Source: Jiangella endophytica
GTDB lineage: Bacteria; Actinomycetota; Actinomycetes; Jiangellales; Jiangellaceae
Assembly: GCF_003427025.1 (NCBI RefSeq)
Contig: NZ_QVAI01000009.1
Coordinates: forward strand, 1-64,000
Reading direction: 5' to 3'
Length of the DNA stretch: 64,000 nt
A program made the position numbers and the translations under genes. Shown piece by piece: positions 1,254 through 12,700 of this stretch. Below the pieces are notes generated by a model, which saw nothing but the letters and a program-made list of their open reading frames with translations, searched no databases and was not told the DNA's origin. Position 1 is the stretch's first letter. Every line of letters starts with the position of its first letter.

Positions 1254-1505
1254 CGGCGCCGGCACGCGGCCAGGGGTGAGGCCCGGTGAGGGTGAGTTGG
1301 CCGATGCGTCGTGGTCGGTCGGTCCTGGTCCAGGGCCGGGTGGGAACCACCGCGTGCATGCCGCCGGCTCGGGGCGGTCGCGCGGGTTCGTGTCCCGCCG
1401 GGCTACGGAGAAGCACCCCTCGCCCGTGGGAACGCAAGGTGATCCGCTTCCGTCTGTTCGGCCGTCCATAGTGGTCGCGGTCTGAGGGCGCCGCGCAGGC
1501 GCTGC

Positions 1506-2228
1506 TCAGGCGCCGAGGTGGTCCTCGATCCGGGCGAGGCGGTCGGTGAGGTCGGCCAGCGTGCCGCGGAGCCAGGTCTCCTCGACGTCTCGTTCGAGCT
1601 GGATGCGGCCGAAGGAGACGCCGTAGTAGAAGGCCGAGAGGGCGGCGGGCGTGACCGTCTCGGTGACGCCGGCGAGGCGCATGGCTTCGCCGGCCGGGCC
1701 GTCGTCCTGGATGAGGCCCAGCAGGAGGTGGCTGGCGGTGGTGGCGTCGGAGCCGTGTTCGGCGGCCTGGGCGGCGCCGACGGCGAGTGCGGCCCGGGTG
1801 CCGGCGGCGAGCGCGGGGGCCTCGACGGCGTCCGCTCCGGGCGCCGTCCGGTGCGAGCCGATCGCCTGCTTCAGCGCGCCGCGGATGGACGCGCGCGGGA
1901 AGCCGAGCAACTCGACGGCGTTGAGTGCCAGGCTCTCGCCCTCGTCCAGGAGGGCCTGCAGGATGTCGCCGGTGTCGACCTCGGCGGCACCGCGAGCCCG
2001 GGCGGCATCGTAGGCCTGGCGCAGCATCTGTGCCACGTGGTGGTTGGGCGGCGGCGTGAGTCCGGCCCACCCTGGCAGGCCGGGGTCGACGGGGGAGAAG
2101 CCGGCGACGTCGCCCGTGCTCTCGAGGGCCTGGGTGAGGGCGACCTGGCAGATCCGCGACACAGGCAGCCGGGCCTCGCGGACGCGGTCGGCGAGGGCGT
2201 CGGGCAGATAGACGTTGACCTTGGGCAC
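1506..2228 (-). CDS. Ribbon-helix-helix / Clp-N repeat hybrid protein
   Basis: A cytoplasmic protein of about 240 residues. It begins with a short ribbon-helix-helix-like segment (VPKVNVYLPDALADRVREA), as in CcdA/Arc-type DNA-binding proteins. Two Clp-N-like helical repeats follow at about residues 60-190 (TGDILQALLDEGESLA and TTASHLLLGLIQDDGPA), like the substrate-adaptor domain of ClpC/ClpA but with no ATPase module. I prefer the GTG at 2228 because AGGA lies 7 nt upstream; an in-frame ATG at 2249 has no ribosome site. The gene diverges from the leader-peptide promoter, and a palindrome sits about 60 nt upstream. Function is unknown; a regulator or an adaptor that reads protein damage are both possible. 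Confidence 0.75.
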   Translation of the reverse strand: MPKVNVYLPDALADRVREARLPVSRICQVALTQALESTGDVAGFSPVDPGLPGWAGLTPPPNHHVAQMLRQAYDAARARGAAEVDTGDILQALLDEGESLALNAVELLGFPRASIRGALKQAIGSHRTAPGADAVEAPALAAGTRAALAVGAAQAAEHGSDATTASHLLLGLIQDDGPAGEAMRLAGVTETVTPAALSAFYYGVSFGRIQLERDVEETWLRGTLADLTDRLARIEDHLGA

Positions 2229-2274
2229 GGGCGCATCCTGTCGCGGCATCGGGGACGAAAAGGGACGGTCGGGA

Positions 2275-2304
2275 TTGATATCACTCTAACCCCAGGGTTA
2301 TAGT
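2275..2304 (+). promoter_or_regulatory. Sigma-70-type promoter of the sulfur-uptake operon
   Basis: TTGATA at 2275-2280 and TATAGT at 2299-2304 are separated by 18 nt. The expected start of transcription, about 7 nt after the -10 box, falls on the ATG at 2311, so the transcript would begin with the start codon of the leader peptide (leaderless). The boxes are read directly from sequence; activity is inferred. Confidence 0.65.
2284..2303. promoter_or_regulatory. Palindromic operator candidate inside the promoter
   Basis: CTCTAACCCCAGGGTTATAG is a near-perfect inverted repeat (6-bp perfect core arms TAACCC/GGGTTA around CA, with further matches outside one mismatch). It fills the spacer between -35 and -10. 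A second small palindrome, TGATATCA, overlaps the -35 box at 2276-2283. A repressor bound here would block the promoter. The binding protein is unknown; the divergent ribbon-helix-helix protein is one candidate. Confidence 0.55.
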
Positions 2305-2310
2305 AGGAAT

Positions 2311-2385
2311 ATGCCCGCGCTTCTGACTCGCCGCCGCGCCGTCGACTACGGTCACGTGGCCAGCGCGCTCTGTCGCGGTCGCTGA
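2311..2385 (+). CDS. Cysteine leader peptide (24 codons), attenuator uORF
   Basis: This short frame encodes 24 residues beginning MPALLTRRRAVDY and ending HVASALCRGR. It matches the pattern (T-R-R-x-x-V-D, then V-A/S-S-A-L/I-C-R) of the small putative leader peptides found upstream of sulfur-acquisition operons in Streptomyces and relatives. The single Cys is codon 21, close to the stop, as expected if ribosome stalling at low cysteinyl-tRNA controls downstream expression. The start codon coincides with the predicted transcription start, so translation is probably leaderless. A possible stem (GGGAC/GTCCC, loop 11 nt) lies shortly before the aldolase gene in the 119-nt gap. The family match is from memory and the mechanism is inferred. 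Confidence 0.75.
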   Translation: MPALLTRRRAVDYGHVASALCRGR

Positions 2386-2504
2386 TCGACCTCATCGTTC
2401 TGATCTCTCCGGCCGCGATTCGGGCGGCGACCACGGGCACCCACCTCGAGCACGGGGACCGTCGTCGCGCGTCCCGAGGCCCTCATGACAAAGGCTGCGA
2501 TGCG

Positions 2505-3242
2505 ATGACCCGGCTTCACCCTGCCCTCGACGGAACCGTGCCGTTCGGCGCGGACGAGCTCGATGCCGCCCGGACCGACCTGACGACGGGGATCAACCGG
2601 CTGTTCGCCGCGTCGGTGATGTCGGCCAGCGGCCACGGGAACATCAGCGTTCGGCTGCCCGGGCACGACGACCTGCTCGCGGTCAACGCGGGCGAACTGC
2701 TCCGGCCATGGCCGGGCGGCGACCTGCGGGTCGGCGTCGCCGGGTTGCGCACCGTCAACGACGATGTGGTCGTGGTGCGCCTGGACGGCGAGGTGCTCTA
2801 CGGGACACCGTCGCCGTCGGTGGCCTCGATCCTCAAGATGCACATCGGCGTCTACCAGACCAAGCCCGACGTCACCGCCGTGATCCACACCCACTCGCCG
2901 TACGCCACCGCGTACGCGCTGGCCGGGGTGACGCTGCCGGCACGGTACGAGGCCCTGCTCATCCACGGCCAGCCGGTCGACGTGCCGGTGGTGCCCTGGG
3001 CGCCACGCGGCACCGCCGAGGCGGTCCAGGCCATCGCCGGCACCTACCGGGCGCATCCCGAGACGTACGGCGTGCTGCTGGGCAATCACGGCCTGCTCGT
3101 CGCCGGCGACACCGCTGTGCACGCCGCCGGCCTGGTCACCGCGATCGAGGAGGCCGCCGTGTCCGGCCTCGCCGCCGCGCCGCTGGGCGGTCCGGTCGCC
3201 TTCCCGGACTACGTGCGCGACCTGAACCTCCGCCTGTTCTGA
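2505..3242 (+). CDS. Class II aldolase/adducin-family protein
   Basis: A 245-residue cytosolic metalloenzyme of the FucA/AraD fold, which cleaves or epimerises sugar phosphates and related hydroxy compounds. The zinc ligands are visible: the HTHSPYATA motif with His128 and His130, and His195 in GNHGLLVAG. The substrate-loop region SASGHGNISVRL is also typical. First structural gene after the leader peptide, and separated from it by 119 nt. The ATG at 2505 overlaps the stop of a 7-codon frame starting at 2485 and has only a weak AAGG upstream, which would suit regulated translation. Its place ahead of a NitT/TauT transporter suggests it acts on the imported compound or a product of it. The substrate is not predictable from sequence. 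Confidence 0.85.
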   Translation: MTRLHPALDGTVPFGADELDAARTDLTTGINRLFAASVMSASGHGNISVRLPGHDDLLAVNAGELLRPWPGGDLRVGVAGLRTVNDDVVVVRLDGEVLYGTPSPSVASILKMHIGVYQTKPDVTAVIHTHSPYATAYALAGVTLPARYEALLIHGQPVDVPVVPWAPRGTAEAVQAIAGTYRAHPETYGVLLGNHGLLVAGDTAVHAAGLVTAIEEAAVSGLAAAPLGGPVAFPDYVRDLNLRLF

Positions 3243-3294
3243 CACCACGAGACCTCGAGGCCGAGGTCCGAGACCTCCGAAAGCGAGATCCGCC

Positions 3295-4305
3295 ATGTCT
3301 ATCTGGACCCGATCCCACCGCCGGTCGACAGCCGCGACGGCCGCCACCCTGCTGCTCGGTCTCGTGCTGGCCGCCTGCGGTGGCGGTGACGACGAGACGA
3401 CGACGGAGTCCGCGGCCGGCGCCACCGGCGACGGCGGCGAGCCGACCACCGTCACGCTCGCCTCCGCGCCGCTCGGCCACCTGGCGCCCGTCTACCTCGC
3501 GCAGGAGAACGGCATCTTCGCCGAGCACGGCCTGGAGGTCGAGGTCGACACGGAGACGTCGGACCTCACCTCGGTGCCGTCCGTGCTCGCGGGCAAGGTC
3601 GACTTCGCCACCGGAGACCTGACGACGCTCATCGTCGCGCGGTCGAAGGGCCTCGATGTCAAGGCGGTCGTGCCGGCGTCGGCGTCCACCGGCGTCGCGG
3701 GCGAGGACTACGGCGCGCTGGTCGTCGCCGGCGACTCGGGCATCACGAGCCCGAAGCAGCTCGAGGGCAGGACCGTCGCCGTCAACATCCTCACCAACAT
3801 CGCGGCCGCCGCGGCGCGCGAGGCGATCAGCGCGGACGGCGGCGACCCGGAGGCGATCGAGCTGGTGGAGCTGCCGTTCCCGCAGGTGCCGGCCGCCATC
3901 AGCTCCGGTCAGGTCGACGGCGCCTGGGTGGTCGAGCCGTTCCTGTCCGCGGCGAAGGCGGAGGGCGCGGTGCCCATCGGCTGGGGCTTCACCGACCTCG
4001 CGGAGGACCTGACGGTGTCGGCCTGGTACTCGTCCGGCGCCTTCGCGGCCGACAACGCGGAGACGGTCACGGCCTTCCGGGACGCGATCCGCGACGCGTA
4101 CGCCTATGCCCGCGAGCACGAGGACGAGGTCCGTGCGATCATCCCGACCTTCACCGAGATCCCGCCCGAGGTGGCCGATCGCATCACGATCACCGGCTGG
4201 CGCGACGAGGTCAGCCGCCAGGCCGCGGAGAAGCTGGTCGACTACGCGATCCGCGACGAACTGATCACCGAGGCGCCCGACCTCGACGCACTGATCCTCC
4301 CGTGA
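3295..4305 (+). CDS. NitT/TauT (SsuA-like) ABC substrate-binding lipoprotein
   Basis: A 336-residue extracellular binding protein. The N-terminus is a lipoprotein signal peptide with lipobox LAAC and Cys28 as the predicted lipidated residue. A two-lobe periplasmic-binding fold of the nitrate/taurine/sulfonate type follows (TVTLASAPLGHLAPVYLAQE, then ENGIFAEHGLEVEV; PSVLAGKVDFA; SSGQVDGAWVVEPF). Such proteins bind sulfonates, thiamine precursors, riboflavin or nitriles, so the family does not fix the ligand. The cysteine leader upstream favours an organosulfur compound. The stop overlaps the GTG of the first permease, which indicates translational coupling. Confidence 0.9.
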   Translation: MSIWTRSHRRSTAATAATLLLGLVLAACGGGDDETTTESAAGATGDGGEPTTVTLASAPLGHLAPVYLAQENGIFAEHGLEVEVDTETSDLTSVPSVLAGKVDFATGDLTTLIVARSKGLDVKAVVPASASTGVAGEDYGALVVAGDSGITSPKQLEGRTVAVNILTNIAAAAAREAISADGGDPEAIELVELPFPQVPAAISSGQVDGAWVVEPFLSAAKAEGAVPIGWGFTDLAEDLTVSAWYSSGAFAADNAETVTAFRDAIRDAYAYAREHEDEVRAIIPTFTEIPPEVADRITITGWRDEVSRQAAEKLVDYAIRDELITEAPDLDALILP

Positions 4306-5198
4306 GTCAGAGCAGCCCGGCGGCGACGGCGGCAGCCGCTGCCGCCGCCGCGGGCCTGGCGGGCGGCGCCCTGCCGATGGGTCACCCGGAGCCGCCGGCG
4401 CATCCGGGCCCGGAGCCGCAGCCGCAGCCGGCGCAGGGGTACGGCCGGGTCCTCGGGCTCCTCGGCCTGGTCGTCACCGCGGCCGGCTACGAGGTCGTGA
4501 CCAGGGCCTTCTTCTCGCCTCGGCACGTGCCCCCACTGGGCGACATCGTGCCGGAGGCCGGCGGGCTGCTCACCGACCCGGAGTTCTGGACGGCGACCGG
4601 CCGGACCCTCGCGGTGTCGGCGATCGGCCTGGTCATCGCCGCCGTCGCGGGAATCGCGATCGGCTTCGGCATCGGCTCCGTGCCGTGGCTGCTGAAGGTG
4701 ACGTCGTCGACGCTGGACTTCCTGCGGCCGGTGCCGTCGATCGTGCTGATCCCGGTGCTGGTGCTGGTCCTGGACGTCGCCGAGATCACGGTGCTGCTGG
4801 TCGCGGTGTCGTGCTTCTGGATCGTCCTCTTCCAGGTGCTGTACGGCCTGCGTGACGTCGACCCCGTCGCCGTCGAGACCGCCCGAAGCTTCCGCCTCGG
4901 CCGGGCGGCGCGCACGGTGCACGTCGTCTGGCCGACCGTCCTGCCGTACCTGGCGACCGCGTTCCGGCTGATGGTGTCGGTCGCGCTGGCACTGGCGCTG
5001 ACCGGCGGGCTGGTGATGGGCGCGGCCGGTCTCGGAGAGCTGATCTGGGCCAGCCAGGAGGCCGGCGAGGTGGCGGCCATGTACGCGCTGGTGCTGCTGA
5101 CCGGTGCCATCGGCATCGTGCTGGACACGCTGGCCCGGCTGGCCGAGCGGCGGCTGTTGCACTGGCACGTCGCGACCCGGCGGGAGCTGGTCCGATGA
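4302..5198 (+). CDS. ABC transporter permease, NitT/TauT type (1)
   Basis: A 298-residue membrane protein of the BPD-transport inner-membrane family, with about six predicted helices and the EAA-loop region (VDPVAVETARSFRLGRAART) that contacts the ATPase. The first 45 residues are an unusual Ala-rich and then Pro/His-rich extension (AAAAAAAAG, HPEPPAHPGPEPQPQP), likely disordered in the cytoplasm. The GTG start overlaps the upstream stop as GTGA, which supports this long form, although a later start near the first helix cannot be excluded. It pairs with the next permease to form a heterodimeric channel. Confidence 0.88.
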   Translation: MSQSSPAATAAAAAAAAGLAGGALPMGHPEPPAHPGPEPQPQPAQGYGRVLGLLGLVVTAAGYEVVTRAFFSPRHVPPLGDIVPEAGGLLTDPEFWTATGRTLAVSAIGLVIAAVAGIAIGFGIGSVPWLLKVTSSTLDFLRPVPSIVLIPVLVLVLDVAEITVLLVAVSCFWIVLFQVLYGLRDVDPVAVETARSFRLGRAARTVHVVWPTVLPYLATAFRLMVSVALALALTGGLVMGAAGLGELIWASQEAGEVAAMYALVLLTGAIGIVLDTLARLAERRLLHWHVATRRELVR

Positions 5199-5992
5199 CG
5201 GCGCGTCGCAGCCGCGCCCTCGCCGGGGCACGCGGCGTCGGGTACGCGCTCGGGCTGCCGGTGGTCCTGCTGGCCTTGTGGTGGGTGGCCGGCGACGGCA
5301 GTGCGAACATCTTCCTGCCCTCGCTGCGCGAGATCCTGGACGCGTTCGGCCGGGTCTGGTTCTCCGACGTGTTCGTCCACGACGTCGTGCCCAGCCTGTG
5401 GCGCCTGGCCGCCGGGTACGGCGCCGCGCTGCTGGCGGGCGTGGCCGCCGGGTACGTGATCGGGCGGTGGGCCGTCGTCCGCGCGCTGGCCAGCCCGGCG
5501 CTGGCGTACTTCCGGGTCCTCCCGGCGCCGGTGATCATCCCGGTCCTGCTGGTCGCCGTCGGCATCGGCGACACCACCAAGCTGATCGTGATCGCGTTCG
5601 GTGCGCTGTGGCCGATCCTGCTCAACACCGCCGACGGCGTCCGCGGTGTCGACGAGGTGACGCTGGAGACGGCGGCGGCGTACCGGCTCACCGGGTGGGC
5701 CCGGCACCGGCTGGTCCTGCGCGCGGCCAGCCCGCAGATCTTCGCCGGCGCCCGGCAGGCCCTCGGCGTCGCGATCATCCTCATGGTGGTCAGCGAGATG
5801 CTCATGAGCACCGACGGGCTCGGCTTCACCGTCATCCAGTTCCAGCGGACGTTCGCCTTCCCGGAGATGTGGAGCGGAGTCCTCCTCCTCGGCGTCCTCG
5901 GCTTCGTCCTCGCCAAGCTCTTCGAGCTGGTCGAACGGTACGCGCTGCGGTGGCACCGGGGACTCACCGGACGGCAGGAGGGATCATCGTGA
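5195..5992 (+). CDS. ABC transporter permease, NitT/TauT type (2)
   Basis: A 265-residue inner-membrane permease with about six hydrophobic segments and the EAA-loop sequence VDEVTLETAAAYRLTGWARH. The ATG overlaps the stop of the first permease (ATGA), and its own stop overlaps the GTG of the ATPase gene. Two different permeases side by side are less common in this family than a homodimer, and this suggests a dedicated heteromeric importer for the same ligand bound by the lipoprotein encoded at 3295. It lacks the Ala/Pro extension seen in its partner. Confidence 0.88.
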   Translation: MTARRSRALAGARGVGYALGLPVVLLALWWVAGDGSANIFLPSLREILDAFGRVWFSDVFVHDVVPSLWRLAAGYGAALLAGVAAGYVIGRWAVVRALASPALAYFRVLPAPVIIPVLLVAVGIGDTTKLIVIAFGALWPILLNTADGVRGVDEVTLETAAAYRLTGWARHRLVLRAASPQIFAGARQALGVAIILMVVSEMLMSTDGLGFTVIQFQRTFAFPEMWSGVLLLGVLGFVLAKLFELVERYALRWHRGLTGRQEGSS

Positions 5993-6837
5993 CGAGCGGA
6001 TCGGGTGACGGCGGCAGCGTGCTGTTGCGCGTCGACGGCGTCGGCAAGACCTACGTGTCGCGGGAACGGACGGTGCAGGCGCTGGCCGGCATCGACCTGG
6101 CCGTGCGCGACGGCGAGTTCGTCTCCGTCGTCGGGCCGTCGGGCGGCGGCAAGACGACGCTGCTGAAGATCGTGGCGGGGCTGCTGCCGGCGACGGCGGG
6201 AGAGGTCGTGCTGGGCGGGCGGCGGGTCACCGAGCCGCCGGCCGAGCTCGGGATCGTCTTCCAGGAGTACGGCCGCAGCCTGTTCGCCTGGAAGACCGTC
6301 CGTGAGAACGTCGAGCTGCCGCTGCGGCAGCGGCGTACGCCCAAGGCCGAGCGGCGGGCGCTGGTCGACGAGGCGCTGGAGGCGGTGGGGCTCGACGGTG
6401 TCGGCACGGCCTACCCATGGCAGCTGTCCGGCGGCATGCAGCAGCGGGTCGCGATCGCGCGGGCGATCGCCTACCGGCCTCGGCTGCTGCTCATGGACGA
6501 GCCGTTCTCCGCCGTCGACGCCCAGACCCGCGGCGACCTGGAGGATCTGCTGGCCCGGCTGTGGCGGCGCTACGCGATCACCGTCCTGTTCATCACCCAC
6601 GACATCGACGAGGCCGTCTACCTGAGCGAGCGCGTCGTCGTCCTCGGGTCCGCGCCGGCCGCCGTCCGGGCCGAGATCGCCGTCGACCTGCCGGCCGAGC
6701 GCGACCAGCTCAGCACCCGCTCCGACCCGCGCTTCGCCGAGCTGCGCGCGCAGGTCTACGCCCAGATCCGCCGCCCGCCCGCGGACGCCGGCCCCGTCGC
6801 CTCCGCATCCATCCGACAGGAGACCGTGACGACATGA
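5989..6837 (+). CDS. ABC transporter ATP-binding protein, NitT/TauT type
   Basis: A 282-residue ATPase that powers the importer. All core motifs are intact: Walker A GPSGGGKTT, Q-loop VFQEYG, ABC signature LSGGMQQR, Walker B LLLMDEPF, the D-loop and the switch His in FITHDIDEAV. The sequence SLFAWKTVRENV after the Q-loop is typical of SsuB/TauB-like subunits. The GTG start (5989) is chosen because it overlaps the permease stop as GTGA and has GGAGGG upstream; the open frame extends further left only as a shadow of the permease gene. The stop overlaps the next ATG. Confidence 0.93.
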   Translation: MTSGSGDGGSVLLRVDGVGKTYVSRERTVQALAGIDLAVRDGEFVSVVGPSGGGKTTLLKIVAGLLPATAGEVVLGGRRVTEPPAELGIVFQEYGRSLFAWKTVRENVELPLRQRRTPKAERRALVDEALEAVGLDGVGTAYPWQLSGGMQQRVAIARAIAYRPRLLLMDEPFSAVDAQTRGDLEDLLARLWRRYAITVLFITHDIDEAVYLSERVVVLGSAPAAVRAEIAVDLPAERDQLSTRSDPRFAELRAQVYAQIRRPPADAGPVASASIRQETVTT

Positions 6838-7766
6838 GCAGCCCCGATCCCGCTCCCCGCTGGGTCGACACCGGCGGCGGGGAGGGTCCGCTGTGGTCCT
6901 TCCGCGTCGGCGACGTCGAGGTGTTCCCGATCCGGGAGGTCGACTACCTCCCGGCGCCCACGGACTTCTTCCCGCAGCTGGAGACGGAGTCCTGGACCGA
7001 CGGCGCATTCTACACCCGCGAGCCGTTCACCCGCGACGGGCGCATCCTGCTCAACCAGGAGGCGCACCTGCTCAAGGTGGGGGACCGGCGCATCCTCGTC
7101 GACGCCGGCGGCGGCAACGGCAAGGCGCGGCGCGGCGGCAGTGTGTACGACCGCACCGACCGGCCGTTCCTCGAGCAGTTCCCGCGGGCCGGGGTGGCGC
7201 TGGAGGACATCGACACCGTCGTCTTCACCCACCTGCACGTCGACCACGTCGGCTTCGCCACCAGCGCCGACGGCGACGGCGGCTGGGTGCCGACGTTCCC
7301 GAACGCCCGCTACCTCGTGGTGCGGCCGGAGTTCGACTGGTGGACGAGCGCCGATGGCGCCCGTGCGCTGGAGCGGACCGGCGACTACATCGCCGACAGC
7401 ATCCTGCCGCTGCGCGACGCGGGGGTGCTCGACCTGGTCGCCGCCGACCACCGGGTCGCGCCGGGCGTCCGGCTGGTGCCGGCGTTCGGGCACACCCCGG
7501 GCAACGTCTACGTCGAGGTCGAGTCGGCCGGGAAGCGCGCGCTCTTCGCCGGCGACATGCTGCACCACGGCGTCCAGTTGGAGCGCCCGGAGTGGAGCAT
7601 CCGCTACTGCGTCCTGCCCGGTGACTCCGCCGACCAGCGTCGCAGGCTGCTGGAGCGGGTCGCCGACACCGGAGACCTGCTGATCCCGGCGCACTTCCCG
7701 TTCCCGGCCGCCGGGTACGTGAGCCGGGCCGAGCGCGGGTTCACCTACACCTTCATCGACGTGTGA
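6834..7766 (+). CDS. Metallo-beta-lactamase-fold hydrolase
   Basis: A 310-residue hydrolase with the metal-binding motif HLHVDHVG (His133, His135, Asp137, His138) and a further ligand region GHTPGNVYVE and FAGDMLHHG, as in AHL-lactonase-like and sulfatase/phosphodiesterase-like members of the superfamily. No signal peptide is evident, so it should act in the cytoplasm on an imported or processed compound. The ATG overlaps the ATPase stop, placing it firmly in the operon. Likely reactions are lactone, thioester or ester hydrolysis. It contains no persulfide-dioxygenase signature that I can recognise. Confidence 0.85.
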   Translation: MSSPDPAPRWVDTGGGEGPLWSFRVGDVEVFPIREVDYLPAPTDFFPQLETESWTDGAFYTREPFTRDGRILLNQEAHLLKVGDRRILVDAGGGNGKARRGGSVYDRTDRPFLEQFPRAGVALEDIDTVVFTHLHVDHVGFATSADGDGGWVPTFPNARYLVVRPEFDWWTSADGARALERTGDYIADSILPLRDAGVLDLVAADHRVAPGVRLVPAFGHTPGNVYVEVESAGKRALFAGDMLHHGVQLERPEWSIRYCVLPGDSADQRRRLLERVADTGDLLIPAHFPFPAAGYVSRAERGFTYTFIDV

Positions 7767-8689
7767 TGCCGCGCTACATCGCCGACTTCCACACCCATTA
7801 CGCCAACCCCGAGTACCCGGCGCTGCTGCCGCGGAACTCCGCGGCCGTGCTGGAGACCCGATGGGCCGGGCTGGCGCGGCGGATCGCCGACCTCGACGAC
7901 CTGCTCGGCGAGACCGGCCGCGACGACATCGACCTGCGGGTCCTCAGCGCGCCGCCGTCGCTGGTCACCCCGGCGGGCGAGCGGACCGCCCCCGACGACC
8001 AGCGCCGGATCAACGACCACCTCGCCGAGGCGGTGGCGTCCGTCCCGGAGCGGCTGGCCGGGCTCGCCACCGTCGACGCGTTCGGCGGCGAACCGGCCGC
8101 GGCCGAGGCGGTGCGGGCGGTCCGCGAGCTGGGGCTGTCCGGCATCGTGGTCGACTGCGCCACCGACGGCCGGCTGCTCAGCGACCCTTCGGCGCGGCCG
8201 GCGCTGACGGCGGCCGCCGAGCTGGGCGTGCCGGTGTTCGCCCACCCGATCAGCCCCGACGTGCTGACGACGGCGTTCGCCGGGCTCGGCCGGTACGGGA
8301 CGTCGTTGGCCCGCGGCACCATCAACGCGGCCGCCCTGCTGTCGCTGCTGGCCGACGGCGTCCTGGCGGAGCTGCCGGAGCTGCACGTCGTGTTCCCGAT
8401 GCTCGGCATCGCCGGATTGTCCCTCGCCGCCGCGGCCGACGACGGCGACGCGTTGCGGGCCCAGGTCTACGTCGACACGATGGGGTTCGTGCCGGCGGCG
8501 GTGCGGTTCGCGACGGAGCTGCTCGGCGCCGACCACGTGCTGGTCGGCAGCGACTGGCCGATCGGCGTCCGCGGGGCCAGCCGCGACCGCGTCGAGGCGG
8601 TGCTCGCGGCCGCCGGGCTCGCGCCGGACGAGGCCGACCTGGTCGCCGGCGGGACGGCGCTGCGACTCGTGAGGTCGTCGCCGCCCTGA
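7763..8689 (+). CDS. Amidohydrolase-2 family protein (ACMSD-like)
   Basis: A 308-residue TIM-barrel protein of the ACMSD/amidohydrolase-related group, which decarboxylates, hydrates or hydrolyses cyclic and aromatic acids. Visible metal-site pieces are DFHTH at residues 8-12, the beta-4 His in VFAHPISP, and the catalytic Asp in VGSDWPIG. The segment that normally reads AH-GGG in this family is instead HVVFPMLGIAG, so the usual beta-5/6 His seems replaced. Start is GTG 7763 or ATG 7766, overlapping the upstream stop. Last gene of the sulfur operon; its role there is inferred only from position. Confidence 0.82.
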   Translation: MMPRYIADFHTHYANPEYPALLPRNSAAVLETRWAGLARRIADLDDLLGETGRDDIDLRVLSAPPSLVTPAGERTAPDDQRRINDHLAEAVASVPERLAGLATVDAFGGEPAAAEAVRAVRELGLSGIVVDCATDGRLLSDPSARPALTAAAELGVPVFAHPISPDVLTTAFAGLGRYGTSLARGTINAAALLSLLADGVLAELPELHVVFPMLGIAGLSLAAAADDGDALRAQVYVDTMGFVPAAVRFATELLGADHVLVGSDWPIGVRGASRDRVEAVLAAAGLAPDEADLVAGGTALRLVRSSPP

Positions 8690-8732
8690 TCGCGACCGGC
8701 GGGGGCTCGGCCCGGCCGTGGTGTGCCTGACC

Positions 8733-8751
8733 GGCCGTGCCGGCAACGGCC
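8733..8751. terminator. Hairpin between convergent genes
   Basis: GGCCGT and ACGGCC form a perfect 6-bp stem around a 7-nt loop in the 86-nt space between the amidohydrolase end and the regulator end. No T-run follows on either strand, so it is only a candidate bidirectional terminator. Confidence 0.35.
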
Positions 8752-8775
8752 CGATCGTGGTCCGGACCCCAGTGG

Positions 8776-9747
8776 TCAGAGCCAGCCGCGGCGCTCGGCT
8801 TCGCGCCCTGCCTGGAAGCGGCTGGTGGCGCCGAGGCCGTCCATGATGCCGGAGATGCGGCGCCGAGCGGTGCGGATGCTCACCCCCAGCTGGCGCGCCA
8901 CCGCCGCGTCCTTCAGGCCCATGGCCAGCAGGGTGAGCAGGTCGGCGTCGTCAGGTGGGATGGGCGCGGCGTCGTGCGGCCGGTCGAGGACCGGAGCGGA
9001 CGACCACAGCGTCTCGAAGAGGGCCAGGAGCGCGTCGAGCAGTCCGGACTCGTGCACCAGCGCGACCGACTCGGACACCTCCTCGCGGGTCAGTGGCACG
9101 ACCGCGGTGTGCTGGTCGAAGATCGTCAGCTTGAGCGGGACCTTGGGCAGCACGCGGGCCTGCTCGCCGTGCGCGACGAGGGTGCGGACGTTGGCCAGCC
9201 GCAGCGGGTCCTGCAACGCCGTGGAGTCGTAGACGACCCGGATGTTCACGCCGCGTTCGAGGAACGGCAGTTCGCCCTCGACCTCGCCCGACAGGGCGTA
9301 GGCGTACGGCGGACGGTCGAAGATGAGGAACTCGCTCGCCGCCGCGGCGAGCGCGGCCGTTCTGTCGCGGATCTCGTCGCTGCCGACGATGACCTCCACG
9401 GCCTGGTGGTGGGCGTCGCCGAACGCGGCGAGCCGATGCTCGGCGGCCAGGGCCGGCAGGTGCGCGTTGACGTCCTCCAGTTGCTCGTGCCGGCGGCGCA
9501 GGAGCGCCGGGACGGCGATCTCGGGGTCGGCCGCGGTCGGCGGCCGGCCGGGAACGCCGGGCTGGATGAGGCCCTCCGCCCGCAGGTGCTGGATCGCCTT
9601 CTCGACACGGTGCCGGCTGATCTCGAGCGTGCGGGCGAGCTCGGCGAGCGAACCGGACCGGCGCCGCAGCACTGCGCGATAGACGCTCTCGTCGACGTCG
9701 GACAGGCCGAGACCCTGCAGCACGGTCGCAGGATAGCGGCGTCGCAT
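8776..9747 (-). CDS. TrmB-like / LuxR-type HTH transcriptional regulator
   Basis: About 323 residues. The N-terminus has a TrmB/MarR-like winged helix (SLAELARTLEISRHRVEKAIQHL). A middle region resembles a phospholipase-D-like or sensor fold (FDRPPYAYALSGEVEGELPF; NIRVVYDSTALQ), and the C-terminus is a LuxR-type helix-turn-helix (DADLLTLLAMGLKDAAVARQ, then LGVSIRTARRRI). This architecture recurs in actinomycetes, often near secreted enzymes or secondary-metabolite genes. The ATG at 9747 is preferred; an in-frame GTG at 9789 would overlap the preceding peptidase gene. It lies 26 nt downstream of the subtilase on the same strand and may be co-transcribed with it. The ligand is unknown. Confidence 0.82.
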   Translation of the reverse strand: MRRRYPATVLQGLGLSDVDESVYRAVLRRRSGSLAELARTLEISRHRVEKAIQHLRAEGLIQPGVPGRPPTAADPEIAVPALLRRRHEQLEDVNAHLPALAAEHRLAAFGDAHHQAVEVIVGSDEIRDRTAALAAAASEFLIFDRPPYAYALSGEVEGELPFLERGVNIRVVYDSTALQDPLRLANVRTLVAHGEQARVLPKVPLKLTIFDQHTAVVPLTREEVSESVALVHESGLLDALLALFETLWSSAPVLDRPHDAAPIPPDDADLLTLLAMGLKDAAVARQLGVSIRTARRRISGIMDGLGATSRFQAGREAERRGWL

Positions 9748-9773
9748 GACGTCGTGGTGACGGTCCCGGTCCG

Positions 9774-12700
9774 CTACCTCACCGAACACTGCCCGCCGGC
9801 CCGGCCGGCCGCCTCGTTGGGGTCACCGAGGTCGATGGGAGCGGGTGCGTTGCCCGTGCACGTCAGCGGTCCGTGGACGTCATTGCCCGAGACGGCCGCG
9901 GGCAGGTGAGGAGCGTTGTCCTGGATCGTGAGTGGCCCGGTGCGGCTGCCCACGATCGACAGCGCCCGCGTGGTGCCGGTCGCCGTGACCGGTCCCGAGA
10001 CGGACACGTCGTCGAGGCCGAGGACCGCGGCGCCGACGGCCCGGACCGATCCCGTGACCGATGCTCTCGTGGCCAGGAGCGCGGCGCCGGCCCCGACCGT
10101 GACCCCGCCGGTGACCCGGGCGCCGTCGTCGAGGCAGGTGGTCCCGGAGTCCACGCTCAGGGGACCGCGGTGCTGGCCGGTCAGCGTCCGGTCGCAGGCG
10201 ACCGCCATGACGTGCGAGCTCGAGGTGCCGACCCGCAGTTCGTGCGTCCCCGCCGCGATCGGGCCCAGGTCCCAGACGACGGTGGTGCTCTCGCCGGGGC
10301 CGAGCGCGACGTCGGTCGTCATGGCGGCGACGCCGTCGAGCACCAGCGTGGCCGCGTGCGAGCCGGTGGCCAGGCCCACGTTCGTGACCTCGGCGACGGT
10401 GTGCAGGGGGTCGCCGGCCGGGACGACCGGCGGGACCGCACGGACGGCGTGGCTGACGAACACCGGCGTCCGGGCGTTGCCGGCCGCGTCGTAGGCGATG
10501 GTCGCGAAGTCCGACGGCGCGACGAGTGGGTCGTCGCCGACGCCCAGGTCGCTGCCTCCGGTGACGAACACGCGCGCGCCGTCCGGGCTGACCGTGACCG
10601 CGGCCGCGTCGTCGTCATCGCCGGCGGGTCCGTCGTAGCGCGCGGCCCAGCGTTGCGTGCCGCCGGCGGCCTCGTAGGCGACGGTGGCGAAGTCGTCACC
10701 GCTGTCCTCGCCGGCGCTCGTCCCGGTGACGACGACCTGCGAGCCGTCGCGGCTCACGGCGACGGCAGCGGCGGCGTCGACGCCCCCGGCAGGGCCCGAG
10801 TAGCTGGAGACCCAGGAGGTCGCGCCGGTGGCGGCGGCGTACCGGACGGTCGCGTAGTCGGCGGAGGCGCTGGTCGAGCCCGCGGAGCTCTGCCCGGTGA
10901 CGTAGACGCCGCTGCCGTCCGGGCTCACGGCGACCGCGGCGGCCCGGTCGACGGAGCCGCCCGGTCCGTCGAAGGTCGCGGTCCAGACCCTGGTGCCGTC
11001 GTCCGTGCCGTAGGCGGCGGTCGCGTAGTCGGGCAGGCCCCGGTCCCCGCGCGTGGTGCCGGTGACGAAGAGCCGGTCACCGTCCGGGCTCACGGCGAGG
11101 GCGACGGCATCGTCGCTCCCACCGGCCGGCCCGTCGTAGCGCGCCGCCCAGACCTGCTCGCCCGTGGGGACGGAGTACGCGACCGTCGCGTGGTCCCAGC
11201 CCGAGGTGGCGCCGGGGCTGTGTCCCGTGACGAACACGACGTCGCCCCGCGGGCTCACGGCCAGGTCGTTCGCCGAGTCGAAACCGGTGGCCGGACCGTC
11301 ATAGAGGGCGACCCAGCGCTGGAGGCCGGTCGCGGCGTCGTACGCGACCGTCCCGTAGTCGGTGTGCGACGTGGCGCCTGTGCGCAGTTGCACCTGGCCG
11401 GTGACGAGCACGGTGCCGCCGTCCGGGCTGACACCCACCGCCCGGGCGTTGTCGAAGTCGTCGCCGGGACCGTTGTAGCGGGCGAGCCACAGCTCGTCGC
11501 CCGTGGAAGCGTCGTACGCGAGCGTCGCGTAGTCGCCGCCGGAGGCGCCCACTCCGCGGCCCACGCTCAGGCCGGTGACGTACACGCGGGTACCGTCCGG
11601 GCTCAACGCGATGTCGTTGGCTCCGTCCTGGCCGTGCGCCGGGCCGTCGTAGCGGGCCCGCCACAGCGTGCGGCCGGTCGCGGTGTCGTAGGCGACGGTG
11701 AGGTAGTCGACCTGGCTGCCCTCGCCGGAACTGGTGCCCGCGACGTACAACCGGCGGCCGTCCGCGCTGACCACCGCGGCGCCGGCGAAGTCCTGCCCGG
11801 CGGCCACCGGGCCGTGCTCGCGAACGACCCACAGCCCGGAGCACTCGCCACCACAGGTGAGGGCGAAGTCCACCGTGTTCGCGCTCCCGGCCGTGGTGGT
11901 CACGGTGACCGGTGCGGGTTCGGCGAACAGGTCGGGTCTTGCGACGACCCGGTGCGTGCCGCGGGGAACGTCGCCGATCGTGTAGCGACCGGCGGAGTCC
12001 GTGACGGCCGAGCGCGGACCGTCGGCGAGTTCGACGGTGACGCCGGGGACACCGGTTCCGCTCGCGGCGTACGAGACCACGCCGGTGATCGTGTCGGTGG
12101 GCAGCGGGGACAGGGCGAGGTCGCGCCGGGTGACCTCGTCGCCGGTGACGACCGTGCCGGGGCTGGAGAGATCGGAGAAGCCGAACCTGCTGGCGGTGAG
12201 CGTGTAGGTGCCGGGGGAAAGGTACAGACGGTAGCTGCCGTCGTCCGCGGTGGTGGTCGTGACGCCGGGCGCGCCGGCGTCACCGGCGCCGGTTGCGGTG
12301 ACGGCGGTGTTCGACGCGGGCCTGCCGTTCACGGCGTCCGTCACCTGTCCGGCCACGCCGCTCAGTGCGATGTCGGCCGACCGGACCGCGTCGGTCACCG
12401 TGAGGGCCCGCACGGTGGCGACGAGCCGGCCCTCCCAGGCCGCTTCGAGCGAGTACGTCCCAGAGGGAAGGCGGATATCGAAACGTCCGTCCGCCGACGT
12501 TCGCTGGGAGATCCCGAGACCTGTCACGCTGACGACGACGCCGGAGACCGGCGCCCGGGTGGCGGCGTCGACGACGGTGCCGGTCACGCCGGTGTGGAGG
12601 GCGACGTGGGCCACGGCCTGGCGGGCGTCGACGCGACCCTGGCCGTACCGGGTGTTGGGCCGCGCAAGGCCGTAGCGGTCGTCGAAGAACGACGTGGCGC

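Follow-up and report, generated by a model that had tools for sequence, protein, structure and literature searches.

The window analysed here, a stretch of 64,000 nucleotides from Jiangella endophytica (contig NZ_QVAI01000009.1), contains a seven-gene operon at 2505–8689 that is preceded by a short leader open-reading frame, a promoter-like site and a divergently transcribed gene. The features of the locus are as follows.

1506–2249, minus strand: divergent Clp_N-domain protein, a candidate local regulator, with an N-terminus that looks ribbon-helix-helix-like by eye
2275–2280, plus strand: −35 hexamer TTGATA, from a promoter scan
2286–2303, plus strand: imperfect palindrome CTAACCCCAGGGTTATAG, seen by eye, a possible operator overlapping the promoter spacer and the −10 hexamer
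2299–2304, plus strand: −10 hexamer TATAGT, from the promoter scan, its first base 12 nt upstream of the ATG
2311–2385, plus strand: leader peptide MPALLTRRRAVDYGHVASALCRGR and stop, from open-reading frame, profile match and ortholog alignment
2323–2373, plus strand: conserved 17-codon core LTRRRAVDYGHVASALC, holding R8 and D12, the invariant residues of the set of related leaders
2371–2374, plus strand: UGUY element, the UGU of Cys21 and the next base C, from codon comparison of leaders
2386–2504, plus strand: spacer of 119 nt without a terminator-like site
2487–2494, plus strand: GACAAAGG, probable Shine-Dalgarno region of the aldolase gene, its GACA complementary to UGUC
2505–3242, plus strand: class II aldolase (Aldolase_II)
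3295–4305, plus strand: NMT1/SsuA-like substrate-binding lipoprotein
4302–5198, plus strand: ABC permease
5195–5992, plus strand: ABC permease
5998–6837, plus strand: ABC ATPase, start codon provisional
6834–7766, plus strand: metallo-beta-lactamase-fold hydrolase
7763–8689, plus strand: Amidohydro_2 hydrolase

A gene for a TrmB-like regulator (8776–9789, minus strand) is convergent with the end of the operon. The divergent Clp_N protein may act as a local repressor on the palindrome at 2286–2303. A candidate shared operator, CCTA..TAGG, was seen ahead of 9 of 181 leaders, compared to 2.0 in shuffled sequence, and ahead of 3 of 12 in the J. endophytica genome.

The 24-codon reading frame that an earlier note had described was recovered at 2311–2385, with the C-terminus ALCRGR, no run of cysteines and a single cysteine at codon 21 (TGT, 2371–2373). 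In a scan of 2200–2560 the sole promoter-like site was TTGATA-18-TATAGT (2275–2304; shuffles gave a mean of 0.1), which matches 10 of 12 positions and whose −10 hexamer, ending 6 nt before the ATG at 2311, would set the transcription start on that ATG, so that a leaderless start fits by sequence. Upstream of 182 unique related leaders, TANNNT hexamers peak at −13 (32 cases) and −12 (19 cases) from the nearest ATG, and such a hexamer lies 11–14 nt ahead of the in-frame start in 87 of the 182, compared to 18 of 182 for pseudo-starts (three per leader, a control that is not exactly matched); the other 95 have no −10-like hexamer at leaderless spacing. Four of the seven orthologous leaders discussed below (L028, L031, L032 and L033) carry TANNNT at the leaderless place, and in the remaining three (L029, L030 and L034) CATACT was seen there by eye. 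The agreement between the promoter spacing of the window and the peak before related leaders bears out, at the level of sequence, the leaderless architecture of the earlier note, and a leaderless start at 2311 appears well supported by sequence.

Scanning both strands of the window with the family motif gave a score of 13 at the leader and 10 at the next three places, and three shuffled windows peaked at 9, 10 and 9, confirming the leader peptide at 2311–2385 as a real feature. MPALLTRRRAVDYGHVASALCRGR matched the NCBIfam model leader_Ms5788A (NF042933) over residues 1–22 of 24 with an E value of 4.5e-6 and 26.2 bits, below the curated cut-off of 45; that family is named Cys-rich while the window peptide has one Cys, and the downstream operon differs. 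With the model cis_reg_atten (NF042934) the peptide has the core motif in common, and its score of 17.7 bits falls under the curated cut-off of 27. The core LTRRRAVDYGHVASALC follows the consensus of the leaders collected in this analysis, LTxRRxVDLxRVxSxLC, save for Y in place of L and H in place of R, and H at that R position is also found in 10 of 28 leaders upstream of sulfite reductase genes, for example LVARLHVDLGHVSSAVC.

A search of the J. endophytica genome with cis_reg_atten yielded at least 11 other leaders, picked by eye from those read of 26 matches at E ≤10, a list that did not include the window peptide itself; two further matches, L011 and L012, were rejected by eye. At E 10 the model also matched 10 of 14 control genomes, none above the cut-off. 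With the threshold tightened to E 0.001, 50 of 60 sampled genomes of the class gave a match, J. endophytica among them, compared to 0 of 14 controls. At E 0.0001 at least 105 of 158 class genomes were matched, in a draw that overlaps the 60-genome sample. Two of the leaders in the J. endophytica genome, L002 and L006 (contig C89, 243385–243657), stand back to back in opposite directions with their cores ~160 bp apart. From the matches of the 60-genome sample, 90 loci or stretches were taken, which is part of the match list. For every leader collected, coding bias in the next 700 nt served to select one downstream gene, which in some cases is not the first. Of the 165 reference genes made in this way, 100 were hand-chosen against redundancy for a Pfam scan. 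The 100 contained 24 rhodanese, 17 nitrite/sulfite reductase, 6 PAPS reductase, 5 PLP enzymes (cysteine-synthase models), 6 luciferase-like monooxygenases, 2 cysteine dioxygenases, 1 APS kinase, 1 sulfatase, 1 TauD and several binding proteins. Without the monooxygenases and binding proteins, up to 57 of the 100 are sulfur-linked, a count that assumes each protein was counted once and that the reductases act on sulfite. The earlier suggestion that the peptide resembles actinomycete leaders located before sulfur genes is supported by both the breadth of this family and the genes that follow it.

A scan with the aldolase protein alone found eight orthologous loci, in Streptomyces sp. NBRC 109706, Phytohabitans suffuscus and six Micromonospora. 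In seven of these loci all seven genes of the operon keep the same order, indicating that the operon proposed at 2505–8689 is real. Conservation of the peptide upstream of orthologous operons had been set as a test beforehand, and a peptide of the pattern LTxRRAxDxGxxxSALC was present directly upstream of the operon in 7 of the 8 loci, the core DNA of one leader (L033) being identical to that of another (L032). The most distant ortholog, L035 from Micromonospora rosaria (57% identity), showed no such leader peptide in the 500 nt upstream, and its metallo-hydrolase was unmatched. A divergent Clp_N protein was matched beside the operon in 6 of the 8 loci. The aldolase was not found in the 21 other genomes of the order at E 1e-40 or in the 392 other genomes of the class sample at E 1e-60, with at most seven candidates scored per genome. 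The operon is patchy in its distribution and probably mobile together with its leader.

The codons of the related leaders were compared in a discovery set of 107 oriented entries from the J. endophytica genome, the class sample and the seven aldolase-operon orthologs, reduced to the 17-codon cores of 99 unique leaders. The Cys codon that ends the core was TGT in 99 of 99, and in a second set of 87 leaders, from genomes nearly all new, it was TGT in 86 and TGC in 1, so that UGU stands in 181 of the 182 unique leaders of the two sets combined. By comparison, UGU makes up 9 of 220 Cys codons (4%) in the downstream genes; within the 99 discovery leaders themselves it accounts for 8 of 64 Cys codons ahead of the core-ending one and 12 of 32 after it. 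The protein model is blind to codons, and this codon choice is therefore no effect of the search. Five leaders stand outside the 182: L071, L072 and L074, which are off pattern and, read separately, have UGU in 3 of 3; L126, which has UGC at the core-ending Cys; and L114, a reverse-strand copy near base 300 with a stop at the Cys position (SAI*), perhaps a natural loss. Of these five, L126 and L114 were also kept out of the 107 entries. As a check, 30 loci were fetched via a sulfite-reductase protein, two of them without the anchor motif. In the other 28 the leader was present in every case and its last Cys codon was UGU in 28 of 28; this codon was left out of the scoring. Some of the 28 had already been present in the two earlier sets.

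The bias extends beyond the codon itself. UGU is followed by a pyrimidine (C or T) in 174 of 182 leaders, compared to 85 of 220 for ordinary Cys codons, while the residue after the core-ending Cys varies, with R (80) and P (38) favoured. The leaders are related to one another, and P-values are for that reason optimistic and are not taken as probabilities. Such near-fixation of UGU looks like a rule with a function. Of 66 Ser residues at core position 13, 56 are encoded by AGC, compared to 18.8 expected, a second synonymous bias near the UGU.

The earlier note had proposed ribosome-mediated attenuation at the Cys codon. The kind of control that it named appears right, but a single Cys codon is too little to describe the leader, which combines a near-invariant UGU with conserved Arg and Asp residues and is followed by no intrinsic terminator. 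We consider it reasonably probable that a leaderless, cis-acting leader peptide places the operon under the control of cysteine supply. A 70S ribosome would start at the 5′ AUG and translate to codon 21, and where Cys-tRNA(Cys) is short it would pause on the UGU. The pause would keep the UGU region (2365–2391) from folding onto the ribosome-binding region of the aldolase gene, allowing the operon to be translated, while with ample cysteine the ribosome would depart and the mRNA would close. If the operon is under cysteine supply in this way, a sulfur source, or else a compound linked to cysteine, would be its probable substrate.

Codon hunger alone would not predict the fixation of UGU, the pyrimidine that follows it and the conservation of R8 and D12, and a plain hunger codon would have no need of these two residues. 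R8 and D12 are kept as residues in 182 of 182 leaders, encoded by five Arg codons and both Asp codons, and R at core position 10 (H15 in the window peptide) in 180 of 182, though the leader search itself favoured all three positions. Both residues are also present in the leaders reached through the aldolase (7) or the sulfite reductase (28), with R, D and R positions scored when the leader places of the latter were chosen. In the seven aldolase-operon leaders, pN is 0.16 and pS 0.31 in frame, an excess that the shifted frames do not have (pN/pS 0.21/0.20 and 0.24/0.18). These residues point to a different stop, and one that has a genuine if smaller chance of being correct: arrest by the nascent chain, with R8 and D12 (and R/H15) acting in the exit tunnel and UGU in the A site as the ribosome stops, and with cysteine, a sulfur metabolite or Cys-tRNA relieving or imposing the stop. 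Such a mechanism likens the leader to TnaC and Erm leaders rather than to trpL. The key residues of TnaC are found 12 and 8 positions ahead of the residue in the P site. If UGU is in the A site, R8 and D12, which precede Leu20 by 12 and 8, would be placed in the same way, a match that may be due to chance.

The reading of the operon as a client of cysteine supply was also weighed against its gene content. Two things only would link it to sulfur, namely the leader and the weak likeness of the binding protein to SsuA; the binding protein is SsuA-like/NMT1, and the remaining genes are neutral as to sulfur. It is thus somewhat unlikely, but not negligible, that the operon has no relation to sulfur and that its leader is a chance capture or governs something different. 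In favour of this, nothing in the aldolase, the metallo-hydrolase or the amidohydrolase bears a sulfur signature, the SsuA model scores the binding protein at 79.2 bits, far under its cut-off of 163.5, and no leader is visible before the operon of L035, the divergent eighth ortholog. That 7 of 8 orthologs, from three named genera, keep the leader, and that the leader group is biased towards sulfur genes, argues in the opposite direction.

Less probable again is that the UGU is kept for a pure RNA reason, as a UGUY element to which a partner RNA or protein binds, with the peptide incidental. The pyrimidine after UGU and the AGC preference at Ser are what such an element would have in its favour, against which stand the conservation at the level of residues, the reading-frame bias and the lack of a universal complementary partner in the spacer. 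A riboswitch or leader identity from Rfam was rejected, with no covariance-model match up to E 1 in 1500–9000 and none at gathering score at 9 related loci. An unusually stable leader RNA was likewise rejected (window RNA, z −0.42).

For the cysteine-supply reading, the predicted closure of the mRNA was examined by comparing how leader segments pair with the ribosome-binding region of their own locus and with permuted partners. Loci with a leader-to-gene distance above 260 nt were left out, which, together with the removal of seven hand-named doubtful gene calls, took the discovery loci from 99 to 69; the new set went from 83 to 58 (57 usable), or 51 after a GC3 rule. In the discovery loci (n = 69), the strongest of eight segments tried was −3..+18 around the UGU, at z −3.8; it was picked after these data, and the segments before and after it gave z −0.9 to +1.5; thinning to 26 downstream protein families left z −3.2 in two sliding windows. 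The segment was fixed beforehand for the new loci, where it did not replicate (z 0.00, 57 usable of 58) and, without 7 doubtful gene calls (n = 51), reached z −1.24. A wider segment, −6..+21, gave z −1.64 and −2.14 in the new loci, and some far segments deviated in the opposite direction, up to z +2.75. Pooling 120 loci resulted in z −3.6 and −4.3 for the UGU region and +2.9 at +45..+66, and thinning the pool to 31 families in z −2.4 and −2.7, with −1.65 at +24..+45. For the leader of the window, pairing has an energy of −19.9 kcal/mol (P 0.028–0.03 by shuffling), and within the aldolase-operon family 2 of 7 pairings have P < 0.05, the window and L034 (0.046), the others ranging from 0.14 to 0.82.

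Complementarity of the UGU stretch to the ribosome-binding window did not exceed its complementarity to the windows on either side. AGGAC occurs in 33 of 120 ribosome-binding regions after leaders compared to 8 of 179 control genes, while GACA and ACA showed no clear enrichment there (P 0.07 and 0.32). UGU as a simple anti-Shine-Dalgarno element is only partly supported, the enriched spacer words being mainly Shine-Dalgarno-like and no ACA partner being universal. The in-silico cost of a U-to-C change was 0.43 kcal/mol at the UGU compared to 0.18 at other U (P 0.01), a small effect; ensemble folding of 111 loci gave a weak signal of consistent geometry, and a profile of 69 loci a mild peak just past the UGU, at +6 to +15.

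Translational control via sequestration nevertheless appears the likeliest output, as judged from the sequences. With no intrinsic terminator in the spacer, translational (or Rho-dependent) attenuation, if any, is likelier than a classical terminator of the kind that follows the leader in a trp-type attenuator. Classical transcription attenuation through an intrinsic or Rho-dependent terminator in the spacer, known from other leaders and for which 119 nt would give room, is quite improbable, since the scan of 2200–2560 found no terminator-like site and such sites occur in 2 of 120 related spacers compared to 1.3 in shuffled ones.

Leaders of this kind have precedents. In mycobacteria, leaderless Cys-rich uORFs lie ahead of cysA2, Rv0485 and nirA (Shell 2015, PMC4633059), and cysteine-responsive attenuation by polycysteine uORFs is attributed to Canestrari 2020 (doi 10.1111/mmi.14498) in PMC9031893, PMC9094748 and PMC13236596. 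The window leader has the leaderless start in common with these uORFs, judged by sequence, but they have a Cys run and a reported cysteine response, whereas the window leader has no Cys run and precedes an aldolase/ABC/hydrolase operon. In Rhodobacterales, ribosome-mediated cysteine attenuation has been proposed for the uORFC-8-2 motif ahead of cysS (PMC8632094), which has mostly UGC and an intrinsic terminator in its model, in contrast to the near-fixed UGU of the present leaders and the absence of a visible terminator. A reannotation of Streptomyces lividans lists, in its Table 4, eight leader peptides ahead of amino-acid genes, none of them with the present motif (PMC8079986). A fixed UGU codon or an Arg/Asp motif in such leaders goes unmentioned in the titles, abstract beginnings and text passages searched, Canestrari 2020 apart. 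The peptide group is already named in NCBIfam and the cysteine uORF as a kind is already known in mycobacteria; beyond these, it is the near-fixed UGU and the conserved residues that would be of specialist interest.

More speculatively, and with less confidence than either form of ribosome stalling above, the actinobacterial sulfur leaders might constitute one family of codon-locked arrest peptides, in which a tunnel Arg/Asp motif and an obligatory A-site UGU, read via wobble by a tRNA-Cys(GCA), would make the pause hypersensitive to Cys-tRNA, a synonymous UGC would abolish or blunt sensing, and the aldolase operon would be a far-travelled client spread between genera with its leader. A synonymous change of UGU to UGC would bear on whether these leaders, present in 50 of 60 sampled class genomes, sense through the identity of the codon and not through its amino acid. 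It would also help to assign transporters of unclear substrate, the present one included, to the sulfur regulon.

A divergent subgroup of leaders has the form LWRRVHMDLxRYAGCVC (L071, L072, L074, L156, L159–L161 and L164). Five of them (L156, L159–L161 and L164) precede a gene with a PTQA(E/D)LL motif, which is perhaps, at a guess, cysteine dioxygenase-like; CDO_I was the Pfam model found in 2 of the 100 scanned downstream genes.
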